64,000 nucleotides of DNA, taken from the NCBI GenBank assembly GCA_017409825.1, contig JAFQRZ010000018.1, forward strand, positions 1-64,000, read 5' to 3'. This document shows positions 745-24,561 of this stretch, piece by piece; within the stretch, counting starts at the first letter, position 1, and each line of letters starts with the position of its first letter. The position numbers and the translations under genes are program-made. This DNA comes from Agathobacter sp. Lineage in GTDB: Bacteria > Bacillota > Clostridia > Lachnospirales > Lachnospiraceae. The notes under the pieces are model-generated. The model searched no databases. It was given only the letters and a program-made list of their open reading frames with translations, and was not told the origin of the DNA.

Positions 745-786
745 ATTATATCATTTTTAAAATTGGAACACTTACCATATATGGTA
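745..786 (-). promoter_or_regulatory. Promoter with palindromic operator, site 1
   Basis: A perfect 14-bp palindrome TACCATATATGGTA (773-786) is followed, reading the minus strand, by 22 nt and then a consensus -10 hexamer TATAAT (750-745). No TTGACA-like -35 is present; the palindrome sits where the -35 would be, centred about 41 bases before the predicted transcription start. It drives the membrane-protein gene at 57-704. Three near-identical arrangements occur elsewhere in the window. Confidence 0.75.
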
Positions 787-848
787 TTATTAATACAAAA
801 GAGAATAAGCACAACAGACCTTGCTTAATGTCCTTCTTTAACGATAAT

Positions 849-2201
849 CTATAACAAACTCACCATATGCTTCACCTTTTTAACTAAATCATTACTCATT
901 TTATAAAGTAACGTATTCATATCCCTTTTGTCTTCAGCATCATTATCAAATTGTACACCGTAAAGAAATTCGTCTATTTTCTTTTCATCATTCAGAACCT
1001 TTTTACTTCGAAGAAAATCCATAATGTCTTTCTTGTAGTTCCCATTTTCATATTTAAAAGCCTTAGCAAGCAAAGTGCTAGCATAAGGATTGTGAGTTTG
1101 ATAGACATCTTGTAACTTAAATAATCGAATACTATTATCTACTTTGGGTTCATGCCTTTCATTTTCGACTATAATCTTAACTAATTGAATATCATCACAA
1201 TTATTCATACTATAATAATTTAAAAGAAAATTTGGATTCGTATCGTCCAACGCCTCATATGAAAACCTTAATCCTTTATCATCATCTTCCCATGGATACA
1301 AATGTTCAGCATTTTTCGTTCCTTTAAACAAAGAATTACATGCATAGCAAGAAGGAATAAGATTAAATAATGAAATCTTTAACATTGGAAATGTTGCTTC
1401 TCTTTTATAGTGATCAAATGTTGCAGTTGTTCGCTTTTCTTTTTTTAGAACAGAAATATATTGTCTATTGCAATATGGACATACACTGGTTTTCATTAGC
1501 TGTGACAATAGAAATCGATTTTCTGCTGAACTTGCAATAAAACTTTTATAATCGAATACCTCATCAAAAAAAGCATGAAAAAAATCCACTTCTTTTGACC
1601 ATTTCTTCTTTAGATATTTATAATATGTAAGATTATTATTGATAATTATTTCTTTAAAAAATCGATTTTCATTAAAGATCGTAATAAAATCAACACCCTT
1701 TTTATCTAGAAATACCGTTATAATTTCTCTCCAGTTTATATACCACTCTGAAAGCTCAATTAATCGCTTGGATGTATCCTCAGACTTGAATATAATCCTT
1801 AAAATTTGCATGCTATAAAAAAATTTGATTTCTAACATGCATTCATCTATCATAAAGATATTTTGCAAATTACTTTGCTTCACTAACAGCAATCGGCTTA
1901 ACGTCACTTTATTAGGTGTAATTCTTGTACCAGTTGAGAAAGGATATCCTAAAAACTTCTGATAATAACTTTTAAAACTAGCTCCCTCCATTAAATTAAC
2001 TATATCTGAATATTTACTAATTAATCTCTCCAACTCTCTCTGTTCAATGAGTTGTTCTATCTCAACCAATGATTTCGTTTTTAATTTATTTAAATAATTA
2101 GTCTCTTTCAATTCATTTATCGCAGATTTTTGGCTTAACATATTAAAAAAAGCCAATATCAGTATTTTTTCTTCAATTGGTGTTAATCTAATTCGTATCA
2201 T
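849..2201 (-). CDS. HNH endonuclease of Septu/PtuB-like type
   Basis: A 450-residue protein with a C-terminal-half zinc-bound HNH nuclease core: CPYC (about residues 237-240), then FDHYK with the HNH His, then NLIPSCYACN followed by KG and a downstream YPW. This cysteine-flanked HNH layout is shared by PtuB and by the nucleases paired with ATPases in retron Ec78-type systems. The N-terminal ~230 residues are helical and not recognised, so the protein is about twice the usual PtuB length. Its start overlaps the 3' end of the ATPase gene by 14 bp, implying translational coupling. Likely role: DNA or RNA cleavage by a complex with the upstream ATPase during phage infection (inference from the family). 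Confidence 0.7.
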   Translation of the reverse strand: MIRIRLTPIEEKILILAFFNMLSQKSAINELKETNYLNKLKTKSLVEIEQLIEQRELERLISKYSDIVNLMEGASFKSYYQKFLGYPFSTGTRITPNKVTLSRLLLVKQSNLQNIFMIDECMLEIKFFYSMQILRIIFKSEDTSKRLIELSEWYINWREIITVFLDKKGVDFITIFNENRFFKEIIINNNLTYYKYLKKKWSKEVDFFHAFFDEVFDYKSFIASSAENRFLLSQLMKTSVCPYCNRQYISVLKKEKRTTATFDHYKREATFPMLKISLFNLIPSCYACNSLFKGTKNAEHLYPWEDDDKGLRFSYEALDDTNPNFLLNYYSMNNCDDIQLVKIIVENERHEPKVDNSIRLFKLQDVYQTHNPYASTLLAKAFKYENGNYKKDIMDFLRSKKVLNDEKKIDEFLYGVQFDNDAEDKRDMNTLLYKMSNDLVKKVKHMVSLL

Positions 2202-4251
2202 TTTTGCTAAGCTCCTTCTCTATTGCCTTTGCTTCTAATAAAAGTTCATTTGCTTTATCTCTAAGCTCTTTAACATATCTTCTCTTATCCATATAACTAT
2301 CTAATTTTTCTTTTAAAACGGTTCTTAATACTGGTTCATCAATTACATTAATATCTCGCCACAAGACAGCAAGAGTTTTTTCTGAAACCTCACTATTCAT
2401 ATCCAATATTTTCTTATGAATTTGTTCATATTTTGTTTGTGCAAACTTTCCTATAGGAATATCTATAAAGAATGCATCTCTTAAAATATCATAATAATTA
2501 CACATAAATCCATTCTTTGGATGAAAAGCTCGCATTCCCATCGTATCTTCTATATAATTGTCACACCAATTTATTTCACTGTTGCTATGCAATTCCCTCC
2601 ACTCTTTTGAGCATAAACAAAATACATTCGAGCGAGGAAAGTCTGTTACTAAAAAAGGCATATGGCTAGACAAAATGATCTGAAAAACATACTGTGGATA
2701 TCGTTTGTTTAAAAGTTCGATCAATGAATATAAAAATGATTGTGTCCATCGTAAATGCAATGTAAAATCTGGCTCGTCCATAATAATCAATATACTCTTC
2801 TTTTGCTGGGCTACCTTTACTTCTTCAATTAGAGAAAATAATCTCGCAAAAACATCTTTAATCAAACTATATTCACCTGTACTCATTTCACTAAATCTAT
2901 AGTTAACAAAATAGAAATTAGATTCCTTTCCATTCAATGATTTTTCTAATTCTTTTGTTGCTTTAATAAACTCAATAACTTTCGCCTTGCTTTTCCCACA
3001 AATACTACTTAACTGCAATTTACAGGAAACTCTCGTTAAAGGATTTCCCCTAATATTTGCATTAGAAAATACTTCTACTGGAATTGCATCTATTGCAGAA
3101 ATCACTCTTTCAAAATACGCTTTTTCAGGAGTTTCAGCAAAAATTACGTCTCTAATAATCATACATAAGAAGTTATATAATTCACTGCTAGTAGGATTAG
3201 ATAAACTGTTCATAAATTCTCTACAAAGTAATAGAATACCAGTATGCTTTTCATTACTCTCTGAAATTAACCTTGCAATAAAAGTAAGCATTGCATTAAT
3301 AAAGAACACACTTTTCAAATCTGCTCCTTCATGCATTAACTTCCTATAAGCAATTCGATAGCTTCCTCTCTTACTAGATATACAATTTTCACCTAGACCA
3401 AAACATTGATATAATTCAAATAATACATCTTTAAATTCTTGATTTTGAGCTTCATAAGAAGCTGTTGCCTTGATAATAAAATTAGGATATTTACTAATAA
3501 AGTGATAATTTGTACTTTCATAATCCATAACAAGAAAATCTAAAATATCTTCTATACCAGTATCACGTTTCGTATGTAAAAGCCATTTTCTAGAAATATA
3601 TATGGAACTATTATCGTCTGATACAAGTGGTAAATAAATACATTCCATTGGAAGCATTTCTGCAAAACTCGTCTTTAAATCTTCTAGTCTATATACTTCT
3701 TTCACAGAACCATATGTAAGTAATTTTTTATTTTTGCCTAATGTAACCAACCCGCAATACCCTGAAACCTTCTCACCTCTTCTATTCCCTTCATAAAAAA
3801 CAGAAACAACGGCATTTGTATCAGATACATCTTTTGTATTTATCTCCAAAAGGTCAGAACATGTCGTTTTTACGTAAAATAACGCCTGATTCTTAATGTA
3901 ATATATTAGGATATACTTCTGCGATGTATCATGTTCAATAATTTCCGTAGCACGAGCAACTATAAGACGCAATAATGTCGTCTTTCCAACTCCGTTTTCT
4001 CCCAGCAGTAATGAAATATTGGTAATATTATTATTATCATTAATCCTCCAGAAATCATCACTATAAATCTCCTCCTTTATTTCAAGATTTATCTTTTGAT
4101 TCTGATAATCGTATGTAAAATCAAATTTTGGTGACAGATTCATTGCAAAATGCTCCATACATTTGCCATCATTTTCTTCATTCATTTTATCAAAATATAC
4201 ATACACCAACTCTACATCAGATTTCTTAATTTCTTTTACATTCATAGGCAT
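2188..4251 (-). CDS. AAA/ABC-type ATPase of Septu/PtuA-like defence pair
   Basis: A 687-residue ATPase of the OLD/RecF-like AAA type. The Walker A motif GENGVGKTT is near residues 84-92, a Ser-rich signature (MSTGEYS) precedes Walker B (ILIIMDEPDFTLH), and the switch histidine follows in LSSHMP. The region between Walker A and the signature is long and helical, and a basic helical tail ends the protein. It is followed by an overlapping HNH nuclease gene, the gene order of Septu-type (PtuAB) and related ATPase/HNH systems, where the ATPase senses and the nuclease acts. AAGGA lies only three bases before Met1 but nine before Met3 (4245), so Met3 may be the true start. The promoter carries palindromic site 2. 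PARIS and OLD systems were considered, but the partner is not TOPRIM. Confidence 0.75.
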   Translation of the reverse strand: MPMNVKEIKKSDVELVYVYFDKMNEENDGKCMEHFAMNLSPKFDFTYDYQNQKINLEIKEEIYSDDFWRINDNNNITNISLLLGENGVGKTTLLRLIVARATEIIEHDTSQKYILIYYIKNQALFYVKTTCSDLLEINTKDVSDTNAVVSVFYEGNRRGEKVSGYCGLVTLGKNKKLLTYGSVKEVYRLEDLKTSFAEMLPMECIYLPLVSDDNSSIYISRKWLLHTKRDTGIEDILDFLVMDYESTNYHFISKYPNFIIKATASYEAQNQEFKDVLFELYQCFGLGENCISSKRGSYRIAYRKLMHEGADLKSVFFINAMLTFIARLISESNEKHTGILLLCREFMNSLSNPTSSELYNFLCMIIRDVIFAETPEKAYFERVISAIDAIPVEVFSNANIRGNPLTRVSCKLQLSSICGKSKAKVIEFIKATKELEKSLNGKESNFYFVNYRFSEMSTGEYSLIKDVFARLFSLIEEVKVAQQKKSILIIMDEPDFTLHLRWTQSFLYSLIELLNKRYPQYVFQIILSSHMPFLVTDFPRSNVFCLCSKEWRELHSNSEINWCDNYIEDTMGMRAFHPKNGFMCNYYDILRDAFFIDIPIGKFAQTKYEQIHKKILDMNSEVSEKTLAVLWRDINVIDEPVLRTVLKEKLDSYMDKRRYVKELRDKANELLLEAKAIEKELSKNDTN

Positions 4252-4292: not shown

Positions 4293-4332
4293 CTTATATT
4301 ATTTTTCTCCATCATACTTACCAAATATGGCA
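4293..4332 (-). promoter_or_regulatory. Promoter with palindromic operator, site 2
   Basis: On the minus strand TGCCATATTTGGTA (4332-4319) matches the shared palindrome at 12 of 14 positions. It is followed after 20 nt by a -10-like TATAAG (4298-4293) about 42 bp before the ATPase start. There is no recognisable -35. Spacing is 2 nt shorter than at the other three sites. Confidence 0.6.
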
Positions 4333-4476: not shown

Positions 4477-5349
4477 TTATAAATGTCTTCGTACAATATT
4501 CGTACTCTCAACTACACAATTATGATTATACAATTCATTCTCAATAAATGAAAAAATATCATTTCTATATTGTTTATATTCAACATCCACTAAATCATAT
4601 AGTCTTCTTCCGTTGCGAGTAAACATTACATTACCGACACAAATTAGTTCTCTGCTTTCAGGTGTTCCTTTTACGTTTACAACAATATTACCAGTTCTAA
4701 GGCGTCTAGGTCCTGTTAATGCATATCCAGGATCCGAATCACAACTAATAAGGCCTAAATATTCAAGATCTTTGAGCCTATCCCAAGTTATCTTAGAATC
4801 TTTATATGCAGTATGAGCTTCAGCAATAAATATAAATGGATGAACTTTATCATAATCTAAATCAAACCAACAAAATCTACAAAGATTACAAAACGACTCT
4901 GCTTGCTTTTTATCAATTATCGATAAAGTGTGAATCAGTGATCTACTTATAGAATTGGGAGAATTTATTTCCTCTGACAATATAGCAGCAAATATTTTTT
5001 GCATAGCTTCATCAGATACCAATTTTGCCTTTTCAAAGAAAAATGAGAACCAGTCATCATCCACTTCATCAATTTGTTTCTCAGGTAAGATATTAAATGA
5101 CGCTATTTCCGCTATCTTTTTACAATTTTTATATTCCTTTATTTGTTTTTTATAATTTATAAGAAAAAACTCTTTTTCTGCAATGGAATACTTATTAGAT
5201 GCCATTACCTCCTCAATTATCTTTTTATGCCCCTCTTGAATTGCTGCATCAATTCCTCTAGCTTGCAATAGAATTTGAACAACCTCTGTTATATTCCTTG
5301 CTGCTTCTGTTGTATTTTTTACAACCTCAGATGTATCTTTTGTATTCAT
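4477..5349 (-). CDS. DUF2806-like protein
   Basis: A 290-residue soluble protein resembling the DUF2806 family, whose function is unknown. It has an N-terminal amphipathic Thr/Val-rich repeat, then LLQARGIDAAIQEGHKKI (about residues 27-44). Next comes a helical segment with WFSFFFEKAKLVSDE and IFAAILSEEINSP (about 105-135), and a C-terminal alpha/beta part that could be a wHTH-like fold. No catalytic motif is visible. It is transcribed in the same direction as the ATPase/HNH genes but separated by about 230 bp that contain the site-2 promoter, so it is probably an independent unit. Members of this family are often found in accessory islands; participation in defence is possible but unproven. 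Confidence 0.6.
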   Translation of the reverse strand: MNTKDTSEVVKNTTEAARNITEVVQILLQARGIDAAIQEGHKKIIEEVMASNKYSIAEKEFFLINYKKQIKEYKNCKKIAEIASFNILPEKQIDEVDDDWFSFFFEKAKLVSDEAMQKIFAAILSEEINSPNSISRSLIHTLSIIDKKQAESFCNLCRFCWFDLDYDKVHPFIFIAEAHTAYKDSKITWDRLKDLEYLGLISCDSDPGYALTGPRRLRTGNIVVNVKGTPESRELICVGNVMFTRNGRRLYDLVDVEYKQYRNDIFSFIENELYNHNCVVESTNIVRRHL

Positions 5350-5579: not shown

Positions 5580-6182
5580 CTAGCTAACTACATATAATTC
5601 ACCCGATTTATATAAACCTTTTTTTACATTTCCGCTCGTATATGATGGTGATTCAAATATTTTTTTACTACCAGTAAATCTGTCATGAGCTATAATATAA
5701 AATTTGAGGTAGGACGTTGACGTTATAGTTAATAAGTCTTCAAGTGTAAGTTGTTTCTTCTCTGCTTTGTCTCTTATTTTTTTAGGATAAATAGGACGTG
5801 CAAATTCAGACATCATATCTGAATCATTAAAACATATTCTTATCAATCCATCCGGATTCATATTGTTTTTCTCTTTGCGTTTTTTAAAAAGTGGTCTAAA
5901 ATCATAACTTACATTTAATTCTGCTATTTGAACACTATCTTTCATCAGTAAATCTGGCATAAATAATGTACAATACAAGTACATTTCAAAAATGTCTCTT
6001 TTTCCTGTATTTCTAAATTTAACCTTATATGTATACACTTCATCCTCGTGCATAGAATCATATTTACAAATTGTATCTGCAAACTTAATCTTAGGCACAA
6101 AAATTTTATACCAAACCAATGAAACAATTGCTGATGCAATACATCCTGAAACAAATCCTAAAAATAACCCTATATAATCCAT
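5580..6182 (-). CDS. Single-pass membrane protein, third gene of the ATP-grasp operon
   Basis: An unrecognised 200-residue protein with one N-terminal transmembrane helix (about residues 4-27), followed by a basic/aromatic stretch and a beta-rich domain carrying KVKFRNTGKRDIFEM, reminiscent of immunoglobulin-like folds. Its start is 12 bp after the stop of the second ATP-grasp gene, so it is almost certainly co-transcribed with the two ligases. It could anchor, sense or export whatever the ligases make. The 230 bp between its stop and the DUF2806-like gene holds no gene that I can see. Confidence 0.65.
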   Translation of the reverse strand: MDYIGLFLGFVSGCIASAIVSLVWYKIFVPKIKFADTICKYDSMHEDEVYTYKVKFRNTGKRDIFEMYLYCTLFMPDLLMKDSVQIAELNVSYDFRPLFKKRKEKNNMNPDGLIRICFNDSDMMSEFARPIYPKKIRDKAEKKQLTLEDLLTITSTSYLKFYIIAHDRFTGSKKIFESPSYTSGNVKKGLYKSGELYVVS

Positions 6183-6194: not shown

Positions 6195-7196
6195 TTATCT
6201 TATATTTTTCTTTATGTATAAAATCACTTGACGATATAGTTCTTTTACATACTCTTCTTGTTTTTGACCTGTATATGCATAATTATCTAAGCCTGGAGCA
6301 CTATTAACCTCTAACACAATATAATCATCCAAACTACTACATAAATCCTTACACATAATATCAATACCACTAAGTTTCAAATTTAAATCATGTGCAATAT
6401 TTACACATAAATTTATATAATCTTGATGAATATTTTCTGTTAAATCTAAGCATTCACCGCCAGCAGATAAATTAGAAATATATCGCAACTTACACTTTTT
6501 ACCAGTTTCTAATATGGAATCATAACTATAACCAAGTTTTTCTATATTAGTTTGTAAATCAATATCATCAAAATTAATAATGGTATCTCTTCCATTTTCC
6601 TCAAAAAACTTTTGTCTTAAAAGTAATAATTCTCTAATTGAACTTACTCCATCACCGATTATACTTAAAGGAATTCGTTGGTAAGCAGAAATAACCTTGT
6701 CCCCTAAAACAACAACACGATAGTCATTATAATCGTAATATTTCTGAATTTGGAAAGTATTTGTTGTTTGGAAAATTAATTTTGCTGTCTCAATAAATTC
6801 ATCTATATCATACACTTTATATATGCCCCGTCCTTTAGATGAATCATTCAATTTCAAAATAGCGGGATACCCTATTTCATTGATAAACTTTATGCCATTT
6901 TCCATGCTATCCTCTAACTTATATCGTTTTCTCTTTTCATCCGAATAGACAACAGTATATAAAGGAACTTTATATCCAAACAAATCCAAAAAATACGACG
7001 TTAAAGATTTATTTTTTGTAATACGAGTTGACGAGACATAATTTAAATTGAAATTTACATCTTTTATAAAGAATTTCCTTCCATCGTCAAAAATCATTAC
7101 ACCAAACATGCCCCTAGATGGCTCTTCTTTAAATATAATATTTTCCTCTTCACAAATTTTTTTAATCAATGGAAAAATTAATTGTTTTCTTAGCAT
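6195..7196 (-). CDS. ATP-grasp ligase, CphA/GshF-like (second paralogue)
   Basis: A 333-residue ATP-grasp enzyme. Family landmarks visible are the nucleotide loop ILKLNDSSKGRGIYKV (about residues 131-146), YRVVVLGDKVISAYQR, and the cyanophycin-synthetase/GshF-type IIGDGVSSIRELL. These are followed by a metal-binding C-terminus ending in GIDIMCKD and LEVNSAPGLDN. Such enzymes form an amide between a carboxylate (via acyl-phosphate) and an amine, often adding amino acids to a peptide. The N-terminus (IKKICEEENI) is nearly the same as that of the upstream protein (IKEICEEENI), so the two are tandem paralogues. Both termini differ from D-Ala-D-Ala ligase, and there is no Mur ligase domain as in CphA. 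The substrate is unknown. Confidence 0.75.
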   Translation of the reverse strand: MLRKQLIFPLIKKICEEENIIFKEEPSRGMFGVMIFDDGRKFFIKDVNFNLNYVSSTRITKNKSLTSYFLDLFGYKVPLYTVVYSDEKRKRYKLEDSMENGIKFINEIGYPAILKLNDSSKGRGIYKVYDIDEFIETAKLIFQTTNTFQIQKYYDYNDYRVVVLGDKVISAYQRIPLSIIGDGVSSIRELLLLRQKFFEENGRDTIINFDDIDLQTNIEKLGYSYDSILETGKKCKLRYISNLSAGGECLDLTENIHQDYINLCVNIAHDLNLKLSGIDIMCKDLCSSLDDYIVLEVNSAPGLDNYAYTGQKQEEYVKELYRQVILYIKKNIR

Positions 7197-7211: not shown

Positions 7212-8147
7212 TTATTGCATCATTTCTAAAATTGCCTCTCTATATATATTCTTTGCAATCTTATAAGTATTGTCATCTTGCTGCGAGAAATGTTCCATCA
7301 TTACACCGCTGTTAATTTCTAATACTTTATACTCACCATTACACTTAACAATATCAATGGATGCAAATCTAATATTCATTTTTTCAACTACATTGTAAAC
7401 AATTTCTTGAATATTTCGTATCACAATATCAGAGTCTTCTATTACTGCATAAGACCCCTTTCCTAAGTTATGCTTCCATCCTAGATAAAATATTTCATTT
7501 TCATCTAAGATTTTATAAAAATCCTTTTGTTCCATTTCATCTAATTTTACACTTTTACCATTTTCAATTTCTTTACAAACCAAATTAGCAATACTATGAA
7601 TCCCGTCTCCAATAATATATGGACGCTGCTTCACATAAACTAATTTAATTTCACCATTTAATACTATTGTACGATATTCATTTTCAATATCATAATATGG
7701 TGATATTGCCATAGCACGTGAAGACCTTTGAACTTTAAAAGCTGCATTTTCCAATTCATATTGATTTGAAACACAATATACCGAATTTCCTCCTGTACCA
7801 TTATTAGATTTACATACTAATTTTCCATATGTGTTTAATAGTTCGGTCATAGCAAGCCAATTTCCATTTTTTCCAACATACTTTTGATTTGTTGGTGACA
7901 TAAAAAATATATGTTCAATGTTAGGTATATTTAAAGCTGACATAACTTCACTTGCTGCACTTTTGTCACAACATATTGAATGAACTGAACATGTATTTAA
8001 TCCAAATTGATATCCTAGTATATAATTGTAAACTCCATTTTTATGTAACTTAAAAATCCAATCATAAGAAAATGATTCTATTTGAATATTTTCTTCCTCG
8101 CAAATTTCCTTAATTATTTTCACAAAATTTCTTTCTGAATTTTCCAT
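7212..8147 (-). CDS. ATP-grasp ligase, CphA/GshF-like (first paralogue)
   Basis: First gene of a three-gene operon. The reading frame is open back to 8222, but that ATG lies inside the -10 hexamer of the promoter. The likely start is the ATG at 8147, preceded by a strong SD (GGGAGG). This gives 311 residues. ATP-grasp motifs: LVCKSNNGTGGNSVYCV (nucleotide loop), YRTIVLNGEIKLVYVKQRP, IIGDGIHSIANLV, and a C-terminal IDIVKCNGEYKVLEINSG metal-binding strand. It is a paralogue of the next gene, 15 bp downstream. Paired ATP-grasp ligases occur in peptide-tailoring and peptide-building pathways, but no precursor peptide gene is visible here. The promoter carries palindromic site 3. Confidence 0.75.
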   Translation of the reverse strand: MENSERNFVKIIKEICEEENIQIESFSYDWIFKLHKNGVYNYILGYQFGLNTCSVHSICCDKSAASEVMSALNIPNIEHIFFMSPTNQKYVGKNGNWLAMTELLNTYGKLVCKSNNGTGGNSVYCVSNQYELENAAFKVQRSSRAMAISPYYDIENEYRTIVLNGEIKLVYVKQRPYIIGDGIHSIANLVCKEIENGKSVKLDEMEQKDFYKILDENEIFYLGWKHNLGKGSYAVIEDSDIVIRNIQEIVYNVVEKMNIRFASIDIVKCNGEYKVLEINSGVMMEHFSQQDDNTYKIAKNIYREAILEMMQ

Positions 8148-8220
8148 CTCTACACCTCCCAAAAATATTTCTCTCGCACCTTCAAATTTACATACAATTA
8201 TCCCATTGTATTTTGGAACC

Positions 8221-8262
8221 ATTATACTCTTCTGAATTTCCCAATGCTTACCATATATGGTC
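8221..8262 (-). promoter_or_regulatory. Promoter with palindromic operator, site 3
   Basis: TACCATATATGGTC on the plus strand (8249-8262; 13 of 14 palindrome positions) is followed on the minus strand by exactly 22 nt and a consensus TATAAT (8226-8221). No -35 hexamer is seen. The predicted transcript would begin near 8214 with a leader of about 67 nt, which rules out the long reading-frame start at 8222. Confidence 0.75.
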
Positions 8263-9274: not shown

Positions 9275-9535
9275 CTATTCTAGCAACTCTTCATCAATTT
9301 CTTTTAAAACAGTTTCAAATTCTTCTGTATCAAAAAAATCCTGTAAAGATACTTCAAATGCATTACAAATTTTCATAATGGAAGCTATGCCTGGATTTTT
9401 AGTTTTTCCATTTATGATATTCATTAATGTAGTAAAAGGAATTGCTGCTTTATATGCCAATGCATAATATGAATATCCTTTCTCCCTACATAGCTGAACT
9501 ATTCTTTCAATTAATATTGTTTGAACTTTTGTCAT
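9275..9535 (-). CDS. Cro/C1-type helix-turn-helix regulator
   Basis: An 86-residue DNA-binding protein consisting of a single HTH_XRE domain (about residues 6-66: YYALAYKAAIPFTTLMNIINGKTKNP, with the recognition helix at TTLMNIINGK) and a short acidic tail. There is no dimerisation or sensor domain. It stands between the plus-strand gene and the RHS toxin locus, whose immunity genes lie upstream on the same strand. It may regulate a neighbouring accessory gene; the target cannot be told from the sequence. Confidence 0.8.
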   Translation of the reverse strand: MTKVQTILIERIVQLCREKGYSYYALAYKAAIPFTTLMNIINGKTKNPGIASIMKICNAFEVSLQDFFDTEEFETVLKEIDEELLE

Positions 9536-13900: not shown

Positions 13901-16900
13901 TTCATCGTACACGTAGGTTTCGGTTCTCTCTTCTCCGTCGGTACGTGAGGTCTGGTTGCCTTCTAAGTCGTATGTGTAGGTGGTTACCTTGCTCAGTGCA
14001 CTTGTATAGGTGATGAGGCTGCCCATGCTGTCGTAGGTGTAGGCTGCACTGCTTCCGCCTGCGGTTTCGACCCTGGTCATGAGGTCGAGCTCATCATAGC
14101 TGTAGTGTGTGTTGTAGCCGGCACGGTCGGTTACGGTGATGACATTTCCATGGATGTCATAGGTGTAGCCGGTGCGGTTGCCCGCCTTGTCGGTTTCTGT
14201 AATGACCTGTCCGTTGGCGTTGTAGGTGTATCCTACGTTCTGGTTCAGGGCATCCGTCTCTGTAATGATTCGGTTGCTCTTGTCGTATGCATACTTCGTC
14301 ACGTTGCCGAGTGGGTCTGTCATATCTGCTACGTTGTAGTTCGCATCGTAGCTGTATGTGGTCTTCGCTCCGCCTGGGGCGAGGACTGACGCTAAGTTGC
14401 CGACTGGGTCATACGTGTATGCTGTGATGTGACCGAGCGGATTCTTCTCTTCTACCATGCGACTTAATACGTCGTAGGTGTAGGAAGTGGTGTAACCTAA
14501 TGCATTTGTTTCGCTAATCAGGTTATTTCTGAAGTCGTAAGCATAGAGTGTGCTTCCGCCCTTCGCATTTACACTGCCTGTCATGCGTCCCAAGATGTCG
14601 TAAGTGTAGGTCGTGGTCTGTCCAAGACTGTTGCTTTCTTCCACGACATTGTCCATCACATCATAGGTGAATTCTGTGACGAAGCCGAGCGGGCTGGTCA
14701 TCTTAATGATTCTGCCTGCTTCGTCGTACTCGTAAGTATAGGTTCCGCCGTTTGCCTGTGTGAGTGCTACGACCTGGTCGTTTAAGTTCATCTCGTAAGC
14801 CGTGACGTTGCCTTTGGCATCGGTTTCACTCAGTACGTTGCCATGCTTATCGTAGGTGTATGTAGTTGACTTGCCCTTTGGAGAGATGGTTTCGACCATG
14901 TTTCCAAGACTGTCGTATCTGTACTGTGTTACTGCACCTTCTGCATCCTGGTACTTAATTAAGCTTCCGAGGGCGTCATAGCGGTACTCTTTGGTTTCGC
15001 CTTCTGGTGCAGTTTCTTTAATCAGACGTCCGAGTTCGTCGTAGACGTAAGTCGTCTGATTTCCTTTTCCATCGGTGATGGAGGTGTTGTTTCCGTTGTC
15101 ATCATAGGTGTAACGGATGGTAGTTCCGTTGGCATCTGTATGTGCTACGACATTTCCTGCTGCGTCATAGGTGTAGCGTTCTGTGCCGCCGAGTGGATTT
15201 GTCACTGCTGTTACACGGTTTAAGGCGTCATAGACATAGCTGTACTGTGCACCGTCTGCTTCTGTCATGGTAAGCTGGTTGCCTGCCTTGTCATAGGTGA
15301 ACGCAGTACGTGTACCTGCGGCATCCGTTACGGCTGTTACACGGTCCATAACGTCATATTCGTAAGTGGTTACGCCGCCGTTTGGTGCGGTTTCTGTGAG
15401 GAGACGTCCATACTTATCGTAGGTGTAGGTCTTGGTTCTGCCGAGCTGGTCGGTTTCGCTGGTGACGTTTCCTGCTGCATCATAAGTGTAGCGGAGTTCG
15501 TTTCCTGCGTTGTCCTTCTGACCTGCCACACGTCCCTGGCTGTCGTACTGGTAGGTTACGGTCAGTCCTTGTGCATCGGTCATGGATACGAGCTGTCCGA
15601 TGGCATTGTATCTCATCGTAGCTTTTGAACCATCCGGTGCTGTAAGGGAGGTATTGTTTCCGTTCTTGTCGTAGGTGTAAGTATAGACATTGCCGAGGGC
15701 ATCTGTCATCTTCACCTTGTTTCCTGCGGCATCGTATTCGTAGGTCGTAATTCCTTTTAAGGCATCCAGCGTTTCCACAAGCTGTCCGTTGGCGTCATAT
15801 CGCATGGCTGTGATATTGCCGAGCGGGTCTGTAATGGAGGTCATGTTGCCGAGAGCATCATAGGTGTATTTCGTAACATGTCCTTTTTCGTCTGTACTGC
15901 TCGTAAGGTTTCCTGCCAGGTCGTAGGTGTTCTTGGTAACCTGTCCCAAAGCATCCGTTACACTGGTCACTCTGCCGACCGCATCATAGGTATAGTATTC
16001 GGTACGTCCAAGCGGATCTGTGTAGGAAGTCTGTCTGCCTGCGGCGTCGTAGGTATAGGTGCTTATGCCGCCTTCAGGGTTCGTTTCTTTTACCTTCTTG
16101 TTGGTATGGTCATACACGTAAGTGCAGCTTCTACCACTGTCGTCGGTAATCGAAAGAAGATTACCGTTGGCATCATAGCGGTAGGTCAGTACTTCCCCGA
16201 GTCTGTTTACTTCTTTGCTGAGTCTGCCTGTGCTGTCGTATTCCTTCGTCTCATAGCTTCCATCGGCATAGATGACCTTGGTTTCGTTGCCGAGGAAGTC
16301 ATATTCATAACGTGTTACATTGCCGAGGGCGTCTGTTACCTTAACAACCTCTCCCTGGCTGTTAAATTCGGATGTTGTGGTATGACCTTCTCCGTCGGTT
16401 ATCTGAACCAGGTTGCCTGCCAAATCATATTTATAGAGCTTGGTTCCAAAGGCAGCATTGGTTTCCTTTATCACTCTTCCCATGCTGTCTCTGGTGTAAG
16501 TGATGGTATTTCCAAGGGCATCCGTCGCTTTGATTTCCTGGTTGTTTTTGTTGTATGCGAAGCTTACTGTATTTCCATTCGCATCCGTAGACTGAATGAC
16601 GTTGTAGAGCTTGTCGTATACGTAGGTCGTGGTTTTGCCTCGTGGGTCGGTACTGCTTAATATGTTGCCGAGTGCATCCAGCTTGTAGGTGGTTCTTCCT
16701 CCATCTGCTGCTATTTCCGAGGTCTTGTTTCCGTTTCTGTCATAGGTCACGGAAGTCGTATTGCCCAGCGGGTCAGTCGTGCTGGTCATACGGTTCATCA
16801 CATCATAGGTAAACTTCCATGTCTTTCCATTGCCGTCCACATAAGTGGTCTGGTTTGGTCCGTCGTAAGTGTAGGTGATGGTGACACCCCTGCCATCGGT

Positions 16901-19900
16901 CTGTGAAATCAGACGATGCAGAGAGTCGTAGGTATAGCTTACCTTGCTGCCGTCTGCCTGTGTATAGGAAACCATGTTTCCTGCACTATCATAAGTGTAT
17001 GTGACTGTTCCGCCTTCATAGCCTGTGGCAGATATCAGCTTATTCTGTGCATTATACTGATATGTCGCTACGGCTCCATCCTCTCTGGTTTCGGTTGCGA
17101 TGTTTCCGAAGCTGTCATAGGTGTATTTCTTGGTGCCTTTCGCAGTCGTTTCCGATGCGAGCTGGTTGTTGTCATTATAGACGTTTTTTACCCAGCTTCC
17201 GTCTGGATAGGTGATAGCAATGGTACGCTTGTTGTCGTCATATTTATAGACGGTCTTGTTGCCTTCGTTGTCGATGGTGGTAGTAGTATTTTCACCGTAA
17301 ATAAGTGTTGCCACGCTGCCATTGGCGTCCGTCTGCTTGATGACACGGCCCTTCTCGTCATATACGTTTTTGATTACGAGGTTGCCATTTTCATCTGACC
17401 AGCTTGTCATACGATGACTAGCATCGTACTGGTAGGTACAAGTATCACCGTTTGCATTTGTCGCTGCGATTAAGTTGTTGTTGCCATCATAATCGTAGGT
17501 AAGATTGCTTCCGTCTGGAAGTGTAATGCAGGCGATAAAACCACGGCTGTTTTGGATAATTCCAAATTTTTTCCCCGAAGGTGTCGTAATACCACTTAAG
17601 TTATAATCTGCATCATAACTTAGGGTAGTAACAAATCCATTTACATCCGTGATGGTTTTCAGTACACCATACTTATCGAAAAACAGTCTGCTCTGTGCCG
17701 CATCCGTCATCTGCCATCCTTTGACATTTACGATGCTTCCATCCTCTGCTGTTTCCTGATAGATGATTTCTTGTAATGTGTAAGTATATCCGTCTGGTGC
17801 CGTATATGTACCGTTTCCATTTGGTGTGAAGAACAGAAAACTTCCATCTCCTCGCTTGTACATCAACTCGCCATTTCCTGCTGGATACAATGCCTGGTCG
17901 TATGTAAAGCTCCAACCTCGCCCAAACATGGAGTTCATCTCTGCGGAAAGAGAGTTATAACCTCTGCCGATTTCAAATGCTCCACCCAGTTCATTCATGG
18001 AAACATCCGTCTCATCCATGTAAAAGTTACCTGTGTTTAGGTTTACTGGTTCAAATCCAAACTGACAATGCTGTCCACGTCCCATGAGCGCACCGTCAAT
18101 TTTCATCTTATCCAAATCGGTCAGTGCTGGTGGGTTGTAAGGCACTGTAGTCTTTGGATTACGGATAAACAAGGTATTACCGGCTACTACGAGGGTATCC
18201 TGTACCTGATTATCTTTCATAATGTCTTTTAAAGATACGCCATAATATTTGGCTATCTTTGGAAGAGTATCAAATTGTTTTACCTCGTAAATTAAGAAGC
18301 TGTCACTAACTACTTCTTTTCCATACTCAATCTGTCCGTTTACCTCTTTCGCTGCTACGGCTCTTATCTGATATATGGTATCCTTCTGCAAACTATCAAA
18401 TAAGGCACTCTGCCAGTTGCTTTCATTCAGTGTGTATTTCGTTGCATTCGGATAAATCTTGTTAAATTCCGTACTGTCTGGAAATGCACGTTCTGCCAGT
18501 GCCTGTGTCTCAAAAACAACACTTTGACTACTTCCAGCAGTGACGCAATAGTAAACAGTTGCATCATACTGTGCGTGCCCATCTACAAACACGCCATCAA
18601 CCTTCTGCATACCATTTAAGGTCTTTTCGGTCATTGGACGTAATTTTACGACAGTATCATCCAGTGTAAGTGTCTCTAGGAATGGGTCTACTGTAGACCC
18701 CCACTCAATTACAATCTTTGGTCCGTAATCTTTTGTCTTGTTATTTAAAATCTCGCACTGCATACCGGCTTCTTCGTAGCCTGCTTCATCCGTGGCTTTC
18801 AGGACAAATCCATAGTTAGGATAAGTTCCTTTCAGCCAATCATTTACCAGTGTTGTGATGTCAAAATCAATATAGGTATTTTCTGTGATTGCTGCATACT
18901 CCGAATCCACAAAGGTGTGCAATTTCGGCTGGTTATCCCAGGTAACACCCATATTCCATTTCTCATCCACACGGAACAATCCGATATTTGTCTTTCCTTG
19001 ACTGTAATCTGACAATTGGCTGACATGAAATGCAGCACTGATAATCCTTACATCTTTTGGGATGGTTTCCATCATGGAACCACTGTCGATTCTTACATAG
19101 GTACGACAGTTTCCATGCCACTTATCACCAATCCCACTCTTTCCACCATCATCATAGCCTACGTATGGAAATGCATTGTCGCCTATCGGCGTACCTGGAG
19201 TATTTTCTTCCACACATGCGAAACTAATGAATTGTTTCTCAACCACTACTGTCGTCGGGTCAATTCGTACTGGATACTGACGTGCCTCATCATTTAACCA
19301 TTCCTGATTTGGCTTCACTGTGAGTATCGTTTTTCCATCCTGCTCGCTAAGCTCCAGCTCGATTGCCATACTTATTTCACCGGCTGCATCTTCCATGATA
19401 GGTGCTTCGAGAATATATACTACGTCCTCTACGGTCTTTCCCTCCGGATAGAGATAGAGCTGGTTGTCCACCAGTTCTGCTTCCATTCCTGGAGCATTTA
19501 CCACATAGCGGAAGGACGTCTGACTGCTTTTCTTAAGGAGTACAATATCTTCCTTGATGCTATTGGCAATTGCGGTGTACTGCACATTGATGTTGTCGTA
19601 AACATTGTTGTACACAATCGCATTTTCTTTTACTACGGAGTGACTATAATCGCCACCCATCGGAATGACTTCCACATAGTAGTCTCCTTTTGTAACAGCA
19701 ATCCCCTCTTCTGTCGTCACCACCTTAGGGAATACCACCTTGTAGCTATTTTCCTTGTTGGTATAGCCCTCAATGGTCTTTCCCGACAACATGGTAAATC
19801 TGGTCGATTCTAACGTATTATCTACGAGATGTACTTCGCCATTTTCATCCACGTATGTCCCTGTGTTTCCCCCAAAGATAGTGACATACTGGTTTTTCCC

Positions 19901-20251
19901 TGTAACATAGGTTCTGGAATTTTCATCGTAATGTACCAGATTTTCTTTGGTAACTCCTAGTTCCTCCAGTTCCTTATCTTCGGAATAATAATCCTCTGGC
20001 TCTTTCGCATAGTAAGTATTATCCCAATCGTCATCCACCGTTTCGGTGTTTTCGCCGTCCTCGTCGTCAATGCCGAGATCTCCCAGCGAATCCCAGCCGT
20101 CTGGCCGAGACATATCCACCCAGGTATGCAGGTTATCGAAAATGCTTCCTGCAAGCCTTATCAGTGGATGCAAATCCTGAAACAGAAGTACTGCTACCAA
20201 AAGCAGTGCCACTGCTGATGTAGCAAGCCCCAATAATTTCTTCTTGCTCAT
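10949..20251 (-). CDS. Giant RHS/YD-repeat polymorphic toxin with HNH-type tip
   Basis: A 3100-residue secreted or surface toxin. In order it has an N-terminal signal-anchor helix (about residues 5-25), an Asp/Glu-rich linker and a beta domain. A DNRLRE-like domain follows (about 335-515, including VTWDNQPK and FDITTLVNDWL), then a LysM-like segment (about 655-700, YGVSLKDIM) and a long array of YD repeats (about 760-2600). Then come the RHS core signature (YLRARYYSPQTGNFITEDTY near 2654) and an Ala/Gly-rich hydrophobic region (about 2840-2920). The C-terminal tip holds ELHHINGRD (about 3060-3068) and WPWEHADIDPYRHY, an HNH/endonuclease-VII-type nuclease signature. The shell encloses the toxin in characterised RHS proteins. 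The gene is visibly richer in GC than the flanking DNA. A strong SD (AGGGGG) precedes the ATG, and an immunity candidate follows. Confidence 0.92.
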   Translation of the reverse strand: MSKKKLLGLATSAVALLLVAVLLFQDLHPLIRLAGSIFDNLHTWVDMSRPDGWDSLGDLGIDDEDGENTETVDDDWDNTYYAKEPEDYYSEDKELEELGVTKENLVHYDENSRTYVTGKNQYVTIFGGNTGTYVDENGEVHLVDNTLESTRFTMLSGKTIEGYTNKENSYKVVFPKVVTTEEGIAVTKGDYYVEVIPMGGDYSHSVVKENAIVYNNVYDNINVQYTAIANSIKEDIVLLKKSSQTSFRYVVNAPGMEAELVDNQLYLYPEGKTVEDVVYILEAPIMEDAAGEISMAIELELSEQDGKTILTVKPNQEWLNDEARQYPVRIDPTTVVVEKQFISFACVEENTPGTPIGDNAFPYVGYDDGGKSGIGDKWHGNCRTYVRIDSGSMMETIPKDVRIISAAFHVSQLSDYSQGKTNIGLFRVDEKWNMGVTWDNQPKLHTFVDSEYAAITENTYIDFDITTLVNDWLKGTYPNYGFVLKATDEAGYEEAGMQCEILNNKTKDYGPKIVIEWGSTVDPFLETLTLDDTVVKLRPMTEKTLNGMQKVDGVFVDGHAQYDATVYYCVTAGSSQSVVFETQALAERAFPDSTEFNKIYPNATKYTLNESNWQSALFDSLQKDTIYQIRAVAAKEVNGQIEYGKEVVSDSFLIYEVKQFDTLPKIAKYYGVSLKDIMKDNQVQDTLVVAGNTLFIRNPKTTVPYNPPALTDLDKMKIDGALMGRGQHCQFGFEPVNLNTGNFYMDETDVSMNELGGAFEIGRGYNSLSAEMNSMFGRGWSFTYDQALYPAGNGELMYKRGDGSFLFFTPNGNGTYTAPDGYTYTLQEIIYQETAEDGSIVNVKGWQMTDAAQSRLFFDKYGVLKTITDVNGFVTTLSYDADYNLSGITTPSGKKFGIIQNSRGFIACITLPDGSNLTYDYDGNNNLIAATNANGDTCTYQYDASHRMTSWSDENGNLVIKNVYDEKGRVIKQTDANGSVATLIYGENTTTTIDNEGNKTVYKYDDNKRTIAITYPDGSWVKNVYNDNNQLASETTAKGTKKYTYDSFGNIATETREDGAVATYQYNAQNKLISATGYEGGTVTYTYDSAGNMVSYTQADGSKVSYTYDSLHRLISQTDGRGVTITYTYDGPNQTTYVDGNGKTWKFTYDVMNRMTSTTDPLGNTTSVTYDRNGNKTSEIAADGGRTTYKLDALGNILSSTDPRGKTTTYVYDKLYNVIQSTDANGNTVSFAYNKNNQEIKATDALGNTITYTRDSMGRVIKETNAAFGTKLYKYDLAGNLVQITDGEGHTTTSEFNSQGEVVKVTDALGNVTRYEYDFLGNETKVIYADGSYETKEYDSTGRLSKEVNRLGEVLTYRYDANGNLLSITDDSGRSCTYVYDHTNKKVKETNPEGGISTYTYDAAGRQTSYTDPLGRTEYYTYDAVGRVTSVTDALGQVTKNTYDLAGNLTSSTDEKGHVTKYTYDALGNMTSITDPLGNITAMRYDANGQLVETLDALKGITTYEYDAAGNKVKMTDALGNVYTYTYDKNGNNTSLTAPDGSKATMRYNAIGQLVSMTDAQGLTVTYQYDSQGRVAGQKDNAGNELRYTYDAAGNVTSETDQLGRTKTYTYDKYGRLLTETAPNGGVTTYEYDVMDRVTAVTDAAGTRTAFTYDKAGNQLTMTEADGAQYSYVYDALNRVTAVTNPLGGTERYTYDAAGNVVAHTDANGTTIRYTYDDNGNNTSITDGKGNQTTYVYDELGRLIKETAPEGETKEYRYDALGSLIKYQDAEGAVTQYRYDSLGNMVETISPKGKSTTYTYDKHGNVLSETDAKGNVTAYEMNLNDQVVALTQANGGTYTYEYDEAGRIIKMTSPLGFVTEFTYDVMDNVVEESNSLGQTTTYTYDILGRMTGSVNAKGGSTLYAYDFRNNLISETNALGYTTSYTYDVLSRMVEEKNPLGHITAYTYDPVGNLASVLAPGGAKTTYSYDANYNVADMTDPLGNVTKYAYDKSNRIITETDALNQNVGYTYNANGQVITETDKAGNRTGYTYDIHGNVITVTDRAGYNTHYSYDELDLMTRVETAGGSSAAYTYDSMGSLITYTSALSKVTTYTYDLEGNQTSRTDGEERTETYVYDEAGRLTSLISAGGNVVTYDYDELNQLIEKAYSNANGETTAESVLYGYDALGNRLAMTDSIGGAEYLYDALGRVTSVKDSAGQTVTYTYDERGNVTQIGYPDGTAVTYEYDLNNNLTKVTDRNGESTTYEYDALNRMVATYRPNYLATYVTYDELDHITKLETIHMVTGRLTASYEYIYNEEGYITKEIVKETIVSQWFEEIYDLFLDTILKHIDIDKYDRIMEEWKKFYDAHHIFCDHNDADGDGQYDNCLWSYMTATSTYEYRYDENWQLTKCTETLQNGIITEYDYQYDKDGNRSKYVKTVNGEWTECYTYEYNAANQLVSRKNERLWTDNVTTYTYDADGNLLSEKTGLFEKTYEYTAENRLAVVKAQGTVLMAALYDGDGNRLFTMDYTGENNDRWDIWIPECGGNADKVDDSAKDAMKELASLVSWRDRKDYTITEYVNDVTRENEEVLAELNPRGKVTTAYTYGYNRESADVYGDTQYYLYDGKGNVDRISSEWGRVKEAYNYDPYGNLTYGIPDTVNYYGYNGESSNLATGLQYLRARYYSPQTGNFITEDTYAGDTTNPLTLNRYTYTSNNPVNRIDPSGHSWLDDVGKAIGSGIKKVGNAIETGVKKAAKAVADTAQKVVTKVKEVAKDVVHAVTHPKETIQKVQKVVKETKQKADNFVQEAKKDPVKVFTTVAAKATKHVSEIKSAVKRAACTSAEYIQEGLGKVDWASVGKTVGKAAAGVAIVAGLGVASVMTGGAAAVILGAAFTGAASGAAIGAVAGGVAGMMSGEGFFAGAADGLLTGSITGAITGLAGQVISTAANSVKLLGNKWVQNGLESAVETVVDTVDTAVHGGDVNAGTIAASFAFNFVTNGGDAPNNVVDETTNIVKKQTGWKVGDPIDNLTKSGKEPAWSTVRARYWKNEAYYNADLYSSKNLERMKKGNAPKHNSVDVSKELHHINGRDIENPHSIDNLMQVWPWEHADIDPYRHYNGPRP

Positions 20252-20906: not shown

Positions 20907-20918
20907 ATATATCCTCCT

Positions 20919-22178: not shown

Positions 22179-22245
22179 TATCTTCTCCTCCTATTATTCT
22201 AGTTAATGTGTCAAATAACCTCTTTCCAATGGAATCCCCCTCTCT

Positions 22246-22284: not shown

Positions 22285-22357
22285 GAACCATCATTGTAGC
22301 GATTCGCTACTTTAGACTTCTAGCTTTGCGTCCCTACATTTCCATAGGTTTGCCAAA
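22285..22357 (-). ncRNA. Cyclic-di-GMP-I (GEMM-I) riboswitch aptamer
   Basis: Reading the minus strand, the conserved GEMM-I landmarks appear in order: GGCAAACC, a short hairpin with a GAAA-type loop (CCTATGGAAATGTAGG), and GGGACGCAAAGC. The strand ends with AGTCTAAAG, the hairpin GTAGCGAATCGCTAC, and AATGATGGTT. These match the c-di-GMP-binding pocket and its tetraloop-receptor pair. It stands about 107 bp before the peptidase start, followed at once by an intrinsic terminator. Confidence 0.9.
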
Positions 22358-22420
22358 ATTAACTTAATTAAGCTATCTATAATTTACTATTTCTGTCAGA
22401 GTGATACTAGCCCTCTTACG

Positions 22421-22509
22421 CGACCGCAGGTAATTTTTGCACCAACGCAAAAAAGAAGCAGATTTCTTGTCGAAAATCTGCTTCTTTTTCTCGTTTCTTA
22501 AGAATATGC
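22421..22509. repeat. Intergenic repeat, copy B, with embedded terminator
   Basis: Nearly identical to 20329-20416: CGACCGCAGG..AATTTTTGCA, CCAACGCAAAAAAG, then the GCAGATTT..AAATCTGC hairpin and CTTAAGAATATG. The hairpin (22449-22491) is the terminator of the LytTR regulator gene. The repeat runs into the last codons of that gene. Confidence 0.7.
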
Positions 22510-23196
22510 AATTTTGGAATTATATTCGAAATATTTTTCCTTCATCTCCGTATACTTCCTCGTGCTTATCATTGCTTTTGTACCATTTGCAAAATAAGCA
22601 TACAACCTATCAATCTTGCGGACACGCTCAAGATTTACCAAATAGGATTTATGACAGCGGTAGAAACCACAATCCTTTAGTTCCTCTTCCACCTCTTCTA
22701 GACTTCTGTTGCTAATGTAGTCTCTTTCCATGGTATGTACGATGATATTTCGCTTATCTGTTTCAATAAACAAAATATCTTTTGCTCGTATATGCATTTC
22801 TGCCATATTCACCACATGGAACACAACAACATGGTCTTTCTTTGGCAACTCATCAATCGCACTAAGTGCTTCTTCTACTTCATCTACAATAAATTTTTTG
22901 TCGATATAACGAAACGCATTTACCATATAACCGCGTCTGCTTAATTCTACATGTGTCGTTAGAAATACGATGATGGCATCGCTATTGTTTTGCTTATAGC
23001 GTTTGACGGTCTCAAAACCATCCATCTCTCCCATCTCGATGTCCATAAATACCACATCATACTTGCCTTGGTTATAAAAGCTCTCACCACAATCAAATTG
23101 GTCTATCAGTGGTGCTTTTGGTCCATAGTGTTTTTTGATTAATTCTTCTACACATACACGCCAATTTTCCTGGTCATCTACAATTGCAATTCTCAT
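22498..23196 (-). CDS. LytTR-family response regulator (AgrA-like)
   Basis: A 232-residue transcription regulator. The receiver domain (1-120) has the phospho-acceptor Asp in YDVVFMDIEMGEMDG (about residue 53) and the conserved Lys in YIDKKF. The LytTR DNA-binding domain (about 130-230) has ILFIETDKRN, LEEVEEELKDCGFYRCHKSYLVN and the terminal KYTEMKEKYFEY. ATG overlaps the stop of the kinase gene by 4 bp. It acts with the adjacent kinase. LytTR regulators usually activate from sites just upstream of -35. The palindrome in front of its own operon makes it the leading candidate for the shared regulator of the accessory genes. Confidence 0.9.
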   Translation of the reverse strand: MRIAIVDDQENWRVCVEELIKKHYGPKAPLIDQFDCGESFYNQGKYDVVFMDIEMGEMDGFETVKRYKQNNSDAIIVFLTTHVELSRRGYMVNAFRYIDKKFIVDEVEEALSAIDELPKKDHVVVFHVVNMAEMHIRAKDILFIETDKRNIIVHTMERDYISNRSLEEVEEELKDCGFYRCHKSYLVNLERVRKIDRLYAYFANGTKAMISTRKYTEMKEKYFEYNSKIAYS

Positions 23197-24494
23197 AGCA
23201 TTTCCTCATTTTCGTTCATCATCATAATCATTACTTTGAAGTGCTGATTATCGGTAGAAATAGAGAGATATCCTCCATTCTTTTCTACACATTCTCTTAC
23301 GTTACTTAGCCCATAGCCATGCCCCAAACTATCTTCTTTAGTAGTTTTGAATATGCCATCTACTTCATTCAGTTCATTTACATAGTCATTTTCTACTGTA
23401 AGAAGTACCTTGTTTTCGATGTACTTGATATGCACCTCAACAATTTTTCCTTCGGCTTCTGACTCTGCACGAATTGCATTGCTCAGCAGATTGGAAAATA
23501 CTGTACAAATATCATACGCCGTGATATAACATTCCAGCGGAAAATGTCCACTTACCTTGAGTGTAATTCCTATTTCCTTTGCTTCTGTGTAGAAACGATT
23601 GAGTATCGCATCTGCTATACCATTGTTTACGCTAATTTGATTATTAAACGAAGATACTTTTTCATTAATATTACTTAAATACTCTTCCGCATCCTCATAC
23701 TTTCCTGTGTTTATCAGATTTTCTAAGAGCAACAGATGATTCTTGATATCATGACGAAATTTTTTCGTTTCATATTCTCTTTTTTCTAAATATTGGTAGT
23801 GTTCGTTTTGGCTTTCTAGGAACTGTTTTGCTAGCTTTTCATTTTCTTTATGTACATTTCTTGTTACTAGCATGTTAATTAAAAGGACTAATTGAATGAG
23901 AAGTCCGATTACCACACACCAGTAGGAGAAGACTACGATGAGTCTTCTCTCGACTTGAAGAGTATCTAATATAAATTCACCCAAAATTATAGTTACAAAT
24001 GAATCGAAAAACATTATGATTATGAACAATAACCAATATTTGGCACCAATGTTTTTAATTCCGATCTCATATTTATCTTTATAATATTTTCCAATTACTT
24101 GTATAACTAATAAAATAAAGCATAAACTAATAATCCGTACAATATTATCTGCCTCGACAATTTTCAATAAAGAAATTATCTCTGTTGAAATCACATCAAA
24201 CAACTTTGACAGCATAGATAATACTGCAGCACTTCCAAAGTATAATCCTAAAATACTTTTCCAGCTTTCTTTAAACCAGACTTTTCCTACCGCAGTGATA
24301 CTTACTATATGCACCATAATCTTTAACACTGCATCGAAATATATTAATGCTATTACAGACACACAAGCAATTGCAAATAGCATTCCTTTTTCATATTTTA
24401 ATTCTTTTCGTCTATAATTTAAAAACAATTCCCCTATGCTTATTACACACAAGAAATATACAAATGTATTAATTAGCTCTAGTAGCAGTTCCAT
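23193..24494 (-). CDS. AgrC-like sensor histidine kinase
   Basis: A 433-residue kinase with about six N-terminal membrane helices (residues 5-215), a coiled linker and a GHKL-type catalytic core. The phospho-acceptor His lies in KFRHDIKNHLLLLENL (about 247) and the N box in NLLSNAIRAESE. The G box is LGHGYGLSNVRECVEKNGG. This is the AgrC/peptide-sensing family layout. No agrB or agrD gene, nor any other obvious pheromone gene, is next to it, so the ligand is unknown. SD GGAGGGG precedes ATG. The promoter contains palindromic site 4. Confidence 0.9.
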   Translation of the reverse strand: MELLLELINTFVYFLCVISIGELFLNYRRKELKYEKGMLFAIACVSVIALIYFDAVLKIMVHIVSITAVGKVWFKESWKSILGLYFGSAAVLSMLSKLFDVISTEIISLLKIVEADNIVRIISLCFILLVIQVIGKYYKDKYEIGIKNIGAKYWLLFIIIMFFDSFVTIILGEFILDTLQVERRLIVVFSYWCVVIGLLIQLVLLINMLVTRNVHKENEKLAKQFLESQNEHYQYLEKREYETKKFRHDIKNHLLLLENLINTGKYEDAEEYLSNINEKVSSFNNQISVNNGIADAILNRFYTEAKEIGITLKVSGHFPLECYITAYDICTVFSNLLSNAIRAESEAEGKIVEVHIKYIENKVLLTVENDYVNELNEVDGIFKTTKEDSLGHGYGLSNVRECVEKNGGYLSISTDNQHFKVMIMMMNENEEML

Positions 24495-24517
24495 TCTATC
24501 CCCTCCAGAATTATATT

Positions 24518-24561
24518 ATTTTATCATAAATTCCAGAGAAACCACTACCGTATATGGTAGT
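24518..24561 (-). promoter_or_regulatory. Promoter with palindromic operator, site 4
   Basis: TACCGTATATGGTA (24546-24559), extended to ACTACCGTATATGGTAGT, is followed on the minus strand by 22 nt and TAAAAT (24523-24518), upstream of the AgrC-like kinase gene. A second -10-like TATAAT lies 8 nt further on. The 22-nt spacing equals that of sites 1 and 3. Confidence 0.7.

Follow-up and report, generated by a model that had tools for sequence, protein, structure and literature searches.

A fixed-spacing palindromic promoter class at scattered accessory and defence-type genes of an Agathobacter genome, with a small XRE protein as its probable regulator

Introduction

The window analyzed here, 64,000 nucleotides of an Agathobacter sp. 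contig (JAFQRZ010000018.1, assembly GCA_017409825.1), carries a 14-bp palindrome, TACC-ATATAT-GGTA or a close variant, ahead of four unrelated minus-strand genes or operons, which raises two questions, namely whether this palindrome is a functional promoter element and which protein reads it. The four copies, all on the minus strand, are TACCATATATGGTA at 773..786 (0 mismatches), TGCCATATTTGGTA at 4319..4332 (2 mismatches), GACCATATATGGTA at 8249..8262 (1 mismatch), and TACCATATACGGTA at 24546..24559 (1 mismatch); as the original prediction had described, they stand 22, 20, 22, and 22 nt before the -10 boxes TATAAT (745..750, minus strand), TATAAG (4293-4298), TATAAT (8221-8226), and TAAAAT (24518-24523), in the promoters of a 215-aa membrane protein gene, an ATPase pair, an ATP-grasp operon, and agrCA, respectively. 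At ≤3 mismatches the window holds 11 matches, as against 3.65 expected, and 0 of 100 shuffles reached 11.

We consider it probable that the palindrome is the operator of an XRE-family protein of ~85 aa with an HTH_26 domain (hereafter mini-XRE), which would sit as a dimer at -41.5, recruit RNA polymerase, control its own gene, and have had its operator spread to at least 12 promoters. We infer the binding, the dimer, the activation, and the signal, and the choice of activation over repression follows from the position of the site. A literature search, with thin coverage of subscription papers and preprints, returned no published report of the motif or the regulon.

Results

The palindrome marks a promoter class

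To ask whether the element extends beyond the window, its 2.8-Mb genome (G000) was scanned. With ≤2 mismatches the palindrome alone gave 57 matches, versus 29 for a reversed control, while the palindrome followed by 22 nt and TATAAT gave 13 matches versus 0. Fifty-one distinct sites, among the matches listed at ≤2 mismatches, were examined in sequence stretches. A TATAAT-like hexamer lay at exactly 22 nt from 14 of the 28 intergenic palindromes, counting both orientations (13 without a hairpin site described below), and any other spacing from 10 to 35 nt was seen for at most 3 of the 28. Within long open reading frames (ORFs), only 1 of 23 palindromes had a hexamer at 22 nt, so that the random spacing in non-promoter DNA that would have spoken against a function was not what we found. 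The palindrome with its 22-nt spacer and TATAAT is thus a real promoter class, as proposed at the outset; the window site at 4319, with its spacing of 20 nt, is a weak member that falls outside the 13 genome matches. One of the 13 (C36:40652, also among the 14) was dropped, since it is part of a hairpin, GAACTAC..GTAGTTC, that is conserved in G000 and in a sister Agathobacter metagenome-assembled genome (MAG), G007, which is 71% complete; 12 promoters were therefore kept. These 12 are spread over seven contigs, and the term "island" applied to them by the original prediction is accordingly wrong. Elsewhere, a perfect palindrome with matching flanks follows a lysA-like gene at C23:40286 (L041, 4287-4300), with no -10 box at 22 nt on either strand.

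In these promoters the 14-bp palindrome occupies positions -48 to -35, with its center at -41.5, a geometry that calls for a dimeric activator. The hexamer most like TTGACA at 16-18 nt ahead of the -10 box differs from it at 3-5 of 6 positions in ten of the kept promoters and at 2 positions in the other two; the earlier claim of a missing -35 is thus supported for most of them. Both the fixed-spacing peak at 22 nt and the weak -35 in 10 of 12 promoters are as expected of class II (-41.5) activator promoters. A dimer-type site near -41, as predicted, is present; dimerization and activation themselves are what such a site suggests. An extended -10 (TGn ahead of the -10) was found in 7 of 12 promoters in G000, 11 of 11 in G007, and 2 of 2 in another relative, G039 (TACCTTATCTGGTA and TACCTTATAGGGTA).

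The genes behind these promoters in G000 are diverse. They include (i) a NACHT-domain protein (Pfam 6e-11); (ii) a dCTP-deaminase-like protein with an 817-aa deaminase (PADLOC dCTPase 2.7e-119); (iii) a restriction-modification (R-M) operon of a C5 methyltransferase and a GHKL/restriction-endonuclease-like gene on contig C7; and (iv) an operon of a helicase and a DUF2971 protein (PADLOC PDC-S31 2e-48), along with DUF6765 and DUF2589 proteins, a lipoprotein (named by eye), a small XRE gene, and what we take to be a DUF4190-like membrane protein. The first sizeable ORF begins 298 nt after the site in the R-M operon and 474 nt after it in the helicase operon, which makes the link to these two operons looser. 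Since the same promoter class stands at targets well outside the window, the proposal that unrelated accessory and defence genes share one control gains support, as judged from sequence.

A family of small XRE proteins carries palindromes of the same geometry

Which protein would read this operator? The candidates searched came from the XRE, LytTR, and Crp families. Four mini-XRE paralogues are encoded in G000, small single-domain proteins of ~85 aa (HTH_26 at 9.7e-9 for one of 85 aa), one of which, with 86 aa, lies in the window (9275..9535, minus strand) and is 58-59% identical to a paralogue on contig C4 whose promoter carries palindromes. XRE1 (C4:139763), which follows the dCTP-deaminase operon, has the promoter TACCATATTCGGCA-N4-AACCATATACGGTA-N22-TATAAT, and XRE2 (C4:182343) has TATCAAATATGGTA-N4-TGCCGAATACGGTG, in which the second site is weak (score 8.3). 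Both genes thus carry two palindromes 18 bp apart, and among 24 scanned stretches the only other such tandem was that of the dCTP-deaminase promoter.

The family was then surveyed in 392 genomes of the order Lachnospirales (membership at E ≤ 1e-12), where it occurs in 64; the 75 stretches retrieved, with ~15 weaker rows of the family list left out, yielded 77 distinct mini-XRE genes, of which ≤200 bp of upstream sequence each was inspected. Palindromes of the form NNNN-ATATAT-NNNN lie upstream of 16 of the 77 genes (mean 0.73 and maximum 4 in 200 shuffles), with GTCT, AGTG, TAAG, TACG, GGCC, and TACC among the half-sites. Among 23 palindromes, 19 had room for a -10 box, and 11 of these 19 show TANNNT at a spacing of exactly 22 nt (p = 3e-11 against a background frequency of 4%, an optimistic value, since related mini-XRE genes and promoters are not independent); three further palindromes have it at 21 nt. 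One homologue, in genome G416, repeats the 18-bp tandem, followed by N22-TACACT.

Half-sites also vary with the recognition-helix region of the protein (Mantel r = 0.35, p = 2e-4, n = 19; in a collapsed set, r = 0.31, p = 0.003, n = 16), a correlation not fully free of shared ancestry. For this test the XRE1, XRE2, and G416 operators, not all of which have ATATAT at the center, were added by hand. Inspection by eye pairs the K of STIKSIL with AGTG, the Y of STIYSML with TACG or TAAG, and the H of TTLLHIM with TACC.

A second regulon was sought with the AGTG operator AGTGATATATCACT, the type covered by our genome-wide operator test outside TACC, and was not borne out: it matched in 17 of 392 genomes, once each. 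In the four of these that were examined (G307, G335, G359, and G228) the match is the promoter of the XRE gene itself; since the operator and -10 box occur there once per genome, at the XRE gene, the circuit in these four looks local.

As to neighbors, the mini-XRE gene is divergent from a gene of an FTGHR type in 12 of 17 pattern matches among the 77 genes (by eye), and Pfam assigned two of three tested FTGHR-type genes to YpsA/SLOG. In stretches L275, L290, L299, L341, and others, the mini-XRE gene and a gene of this SLOG (YpsA) type are divergently oriented, and several of these stretches have palindromes in the space between them. In genome G394 (L276), a mini-XRE gene is flanked by AgrB/AgrD-like genes on one side and a LytTR regulator gene on the other, AgrD being named by eye and the other two by Pfam; a similar neighborhood surrounds one of the three mini-XRE genes of G415 (L337).

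A proposed circuit and its competitors

Together, these observations suggest a circuit in which a mini-XRE dimer would bind the palindrome centered at -41.5 and, once bound, would recruit RNA polymerase to promoters that mostly lack a clear -35 and often have a TGn -10. The protein would control its own gene through two operators 18 bp apart. In the rest of the order, to the extent covered by the tests, the circuit would stay confined to the XRE gene, which in some genomes has a SLOG gene or an agr locus as its neighbor. In the lineage of the window, the TACC operator would have multiplied to at least 12 promoters, placing acquired genes (several defence-type systems, the ATP-grasp operon, AgrCA, and phage-tail-associated lipoproteins) under one self-controlled switch. 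A profile search, whose query alignment included a row from G039, found strong mini-XRE homologues in G039 and in G100, the MAG CANRVD01, whose completeness is not given, and these genomes carry two and three such promoters; among genomes with several TACC promoters, a homologue is thus found in G000, G039, and G100, and not in the 71%-complete G007.

A number of findings weigh against this reading. G007, second-richest with 11 promoters, has no close homologue, its best match being only 34% identical, within the limits of its completeness. Of the 64 genomes with the family, only G000 has more than two TACC promoters, and family presence is therefore no predictor of them. No palindrome lies upstream of the window copy at 9275-9535 or of the G100 mini-XRE, the XRE2 tandem has no -10 box at 22 nt, and 61 of the 77 homologue upstream regions lack an NNNN-ATATAT-NNNN palindrome. 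At the promoters, the two -35 elements with only 2 mismatches fit poorly, as does the absence of TGn from all three G100 promoters (0/3). Finally, several targets appear to be defence-type genes, and defence seems prominent among them, although PADLOC alone is not specific, since two of ten window genes used as controls also scored strongly.

A mini-XRE could instead bind the palindrome as a repressor, keeping the accessory genes off until it is removed. Many XRE autoregulators are repressors, and in L275, L290, and L341 a second palindrome lies, by eye, near the start of the divergent gene. The site, however, lies upstream of the -10 box in promoters that mostly lack a clear -35, and its fixed 22-nt spacing fits contact with RNA polymerase; we regard repression as unlikely.

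Just as doubtful, if not slightly more so, is a different regulator altogether, such as one common to G000, G007, and phages. The lack of a close mini-XRE in G007 would be explained, and a phage CI-like XRE is indeed common to G000, G007, and a viral contig; yet palindromes of the same geometry stand at mini-XRE genes, and the CI-like protein was set aside as a candidate, its three upstream stretches having no TACC site (best score 2.2). In the viral contigs there was no relative of XRE1, and its relatives in 18 plasmid and 21 phage records are all <60% identical.

A Crp/Fnr-family activator at -41.5 seems very unlikely to us. The geometry, with a 14-bp palindrome at -41.5, is the classic class II one, and one Crp-type protein with a high score is encoded in each of G000 and G007, the two being alike by eye. 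Nevertheless, G100 gave no Crp-type match over the cut-off, given its unstated completeness, and no palindrome scoring ≥8 turned up in the Crp stretches L188, L189, and L231.

Least probable of all is the AgrA-like LytTR protein, proposed originally as controlling itself and the set: its own operon carries a site, but direct repeats are the usual targets of LytTR proteins, the incomplete G007 has two LytTR proteins that share only 27% (239 aa) and 32% (91 aa) identity with it, none of 30 LytTR stretches has a site scoring ≥14 (that of the window gene stopping short of the 24546 site), and a different family, mini-XRE, carries such palindromes before its own genes in many genomes. The LytTR protein is thus probably not the regulator, and AgrCA is better read as a target.

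Comparison with known regulators

The controller (C) proteins of type II R-M systems (C.PvuII, C.Csp231I, and C.BclI) are small single-domain XRE proteins with paired palindromic operators at their own genes, which they activate and also repress, and with defence genes as targets (PMC3695507, PMC3115060). The mini-XRE proteins resemble them in size and in their putative autogenous control; two operators at the own gene were seen for XRE1, XRE2 (the second weak), and the G416 homologue, and not for the window and G100 copies; C.BclI matches mini-XRE at 0.0019 and, like SinR, is among seven solved sequences that do so. In contrast, the operator is TACC-ATATAT-GGTA here and GACTtatAGTC there, XRE1 adjoins the dCTP-deaminase operon with no R-M pair (the R-M target lies on C7), and at least 12 scattered promoters stand against one locus. 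With another operator and no adjacent endonuclease, mini-XRE is not a C protein by membership; by analogy it probably works like one, on a scattered regulon.

CI proteins of the lambda/434 type activate from a site near -42. They share with mini-XRE an XRE dimer (a presumed one here) on a 14-bp AT-centered palindrome next to the -35 position, and differ in that mini-XRE, at 85 aa, has no room for more domains and would act on a chromosomal regulon. SinR represses biofilm genes. Its HTH is similar in sequence to mini-XRE (PDB 1b0n, 3qq6), whereas its 111-aa chain is longer. RptR is described as a small self-regulating protein that acts on defence genes by way of repeated palindromes (PMC12255303), features proposed here for mini-XRE as well; RptR, however, has another fold, its 6-bp site overlaps the -10, and it is the repressor of a single local defence island. 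BrxR, CapW, and CapR, cited in the same text, are likewise dedicated regulators of defence systems, but of the WYL type and repressing the BREX and CBASS systems that they accompany (PMC12255303).

We hold evenly balanced the broader proposal that C-protein-like XRE switches of ~80 aa, with a readable helix/half-site code, control accessory genes of Lachnospirales from -41.5, and that one Agathobacter lineage copied the operator to at least a dozen acquired operons, making a unified, self-controlled regulon of immunity and competition joined by phage-borne lipoprotein genes. Bacterial defence regulators are known mainly as one per locus; if the proposal is true, one self-controlled mini-XRE would be the shared switch over a scattered arsenal (dCTP-deaminase cassette, NACHT protein, R-M operon, helicase system, and quorum-type kinase). 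The promoter signature would make such a regulon readable from sequence, and the helix/half-site correlation would open to direct test the operators that belong to the many small XRE proteins of gut bacteria still without a name.

Distribution of the promoter form

The promoter form occurs in 8 of 98 relatives, with 13 matches in G000, 11 in G007, two each in G039 and G072, and one each in four others; within the genus it is found in 4 of 62 genomes. Across the order, 40 of 392 genomes have it, and the 41 matches outside G000, versus ~38 for the control, are at background level. In assembled contigs, its exact form was found in nine stretches, four from Agathobacter sp. RGIG4703, three from CANRVD01, one from a Bacilli MAG (with the site at the second base of the record), and one from a Thermoplasmata MAG. 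In G007, the genes behind the sites encode lipoproteins, exported proteins, and a metalloprotease-like protein (named by eye).

On one viral contig, lipoprotein genes that lie amid phage-tail-like genes are preceded by two exact copies and by additional variants. In L041 (4535-18001, contig C23 of G000), L084, and L387, with names given by eye, a CI-like XRE gene is followed by phage-tail-like genes, lipoprotein genes with TACC promoters lie between these, and no head genes were recognized within the stretches retrieved; such a gene set is possibly a tailocin or a prophage remnant. In each of two adjacent G100 modules (L116, L120), a TACC promoter is accompanied by genes for a small secreted-looking protein, for FtsX-like permeases, and for an ABC ATPase, an arrangement compatible with a possible bacteriocin locus. 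A 133-aa secreted protein behind a G100 promoter has no Pfam match; we presume a resemblance to lactococcin 972, which Pfam did not confirm.

Genes behind and around the window promoters

The genes behind the four window promoters lie on the minus strand. The perfect palindrome precedes a predicted target at 57..704, the 215-aa protein, which is membrane-like by eye and has no Pfam family. The weaker operator precedes two further predicted targets, an AAA ATPase at 2188..4251 (PADLOC candidate PDC-M62A, 6e-42; Septu PtuA-like, 1e-11) and its 450-aa partner at 849..2201 (PDC-M62B, 5e-41; a weak PtuB match at 4e-5; no Pfam family).

The ATP-grasp operon begins with an ATP-grasp-like ORF at 7212..8222, whose RimK and YheCD matches are below the cut-off. 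Since the ORF start at 8222 overlaps the -10 box, translation probably begins instead at the in-frame ATG at 8147, which follows GGGAGGTG. It is followed by a RimK-type ATP-grasp protein (6195..7196, by family match), a 200-aa protein with no Pfam family (5580..6182), and a DUF2806 protein (4477..5349, by family match) that possibly belongs to the operon.

The fourth palindrome precedes the predicted targets of the agrCA pair, an AgrC-like GHKL histidine kinase (23193..24494, by family match) and the AgrA-like LytTR response regulator (22498..23196, by family match and identity comparison). Downstream of AgrCA and two exported-looking proteins lies the gene of a 3100-aa protein (10949-20251, minus strand) that contains 41 RHS-repeat stretches, DUF6531, and LysM; this protein resembles the polymorphic toxins used in interbacterial competition, and the gene at 10487-10936, which has no Pfam match, may encode its immunity protein.

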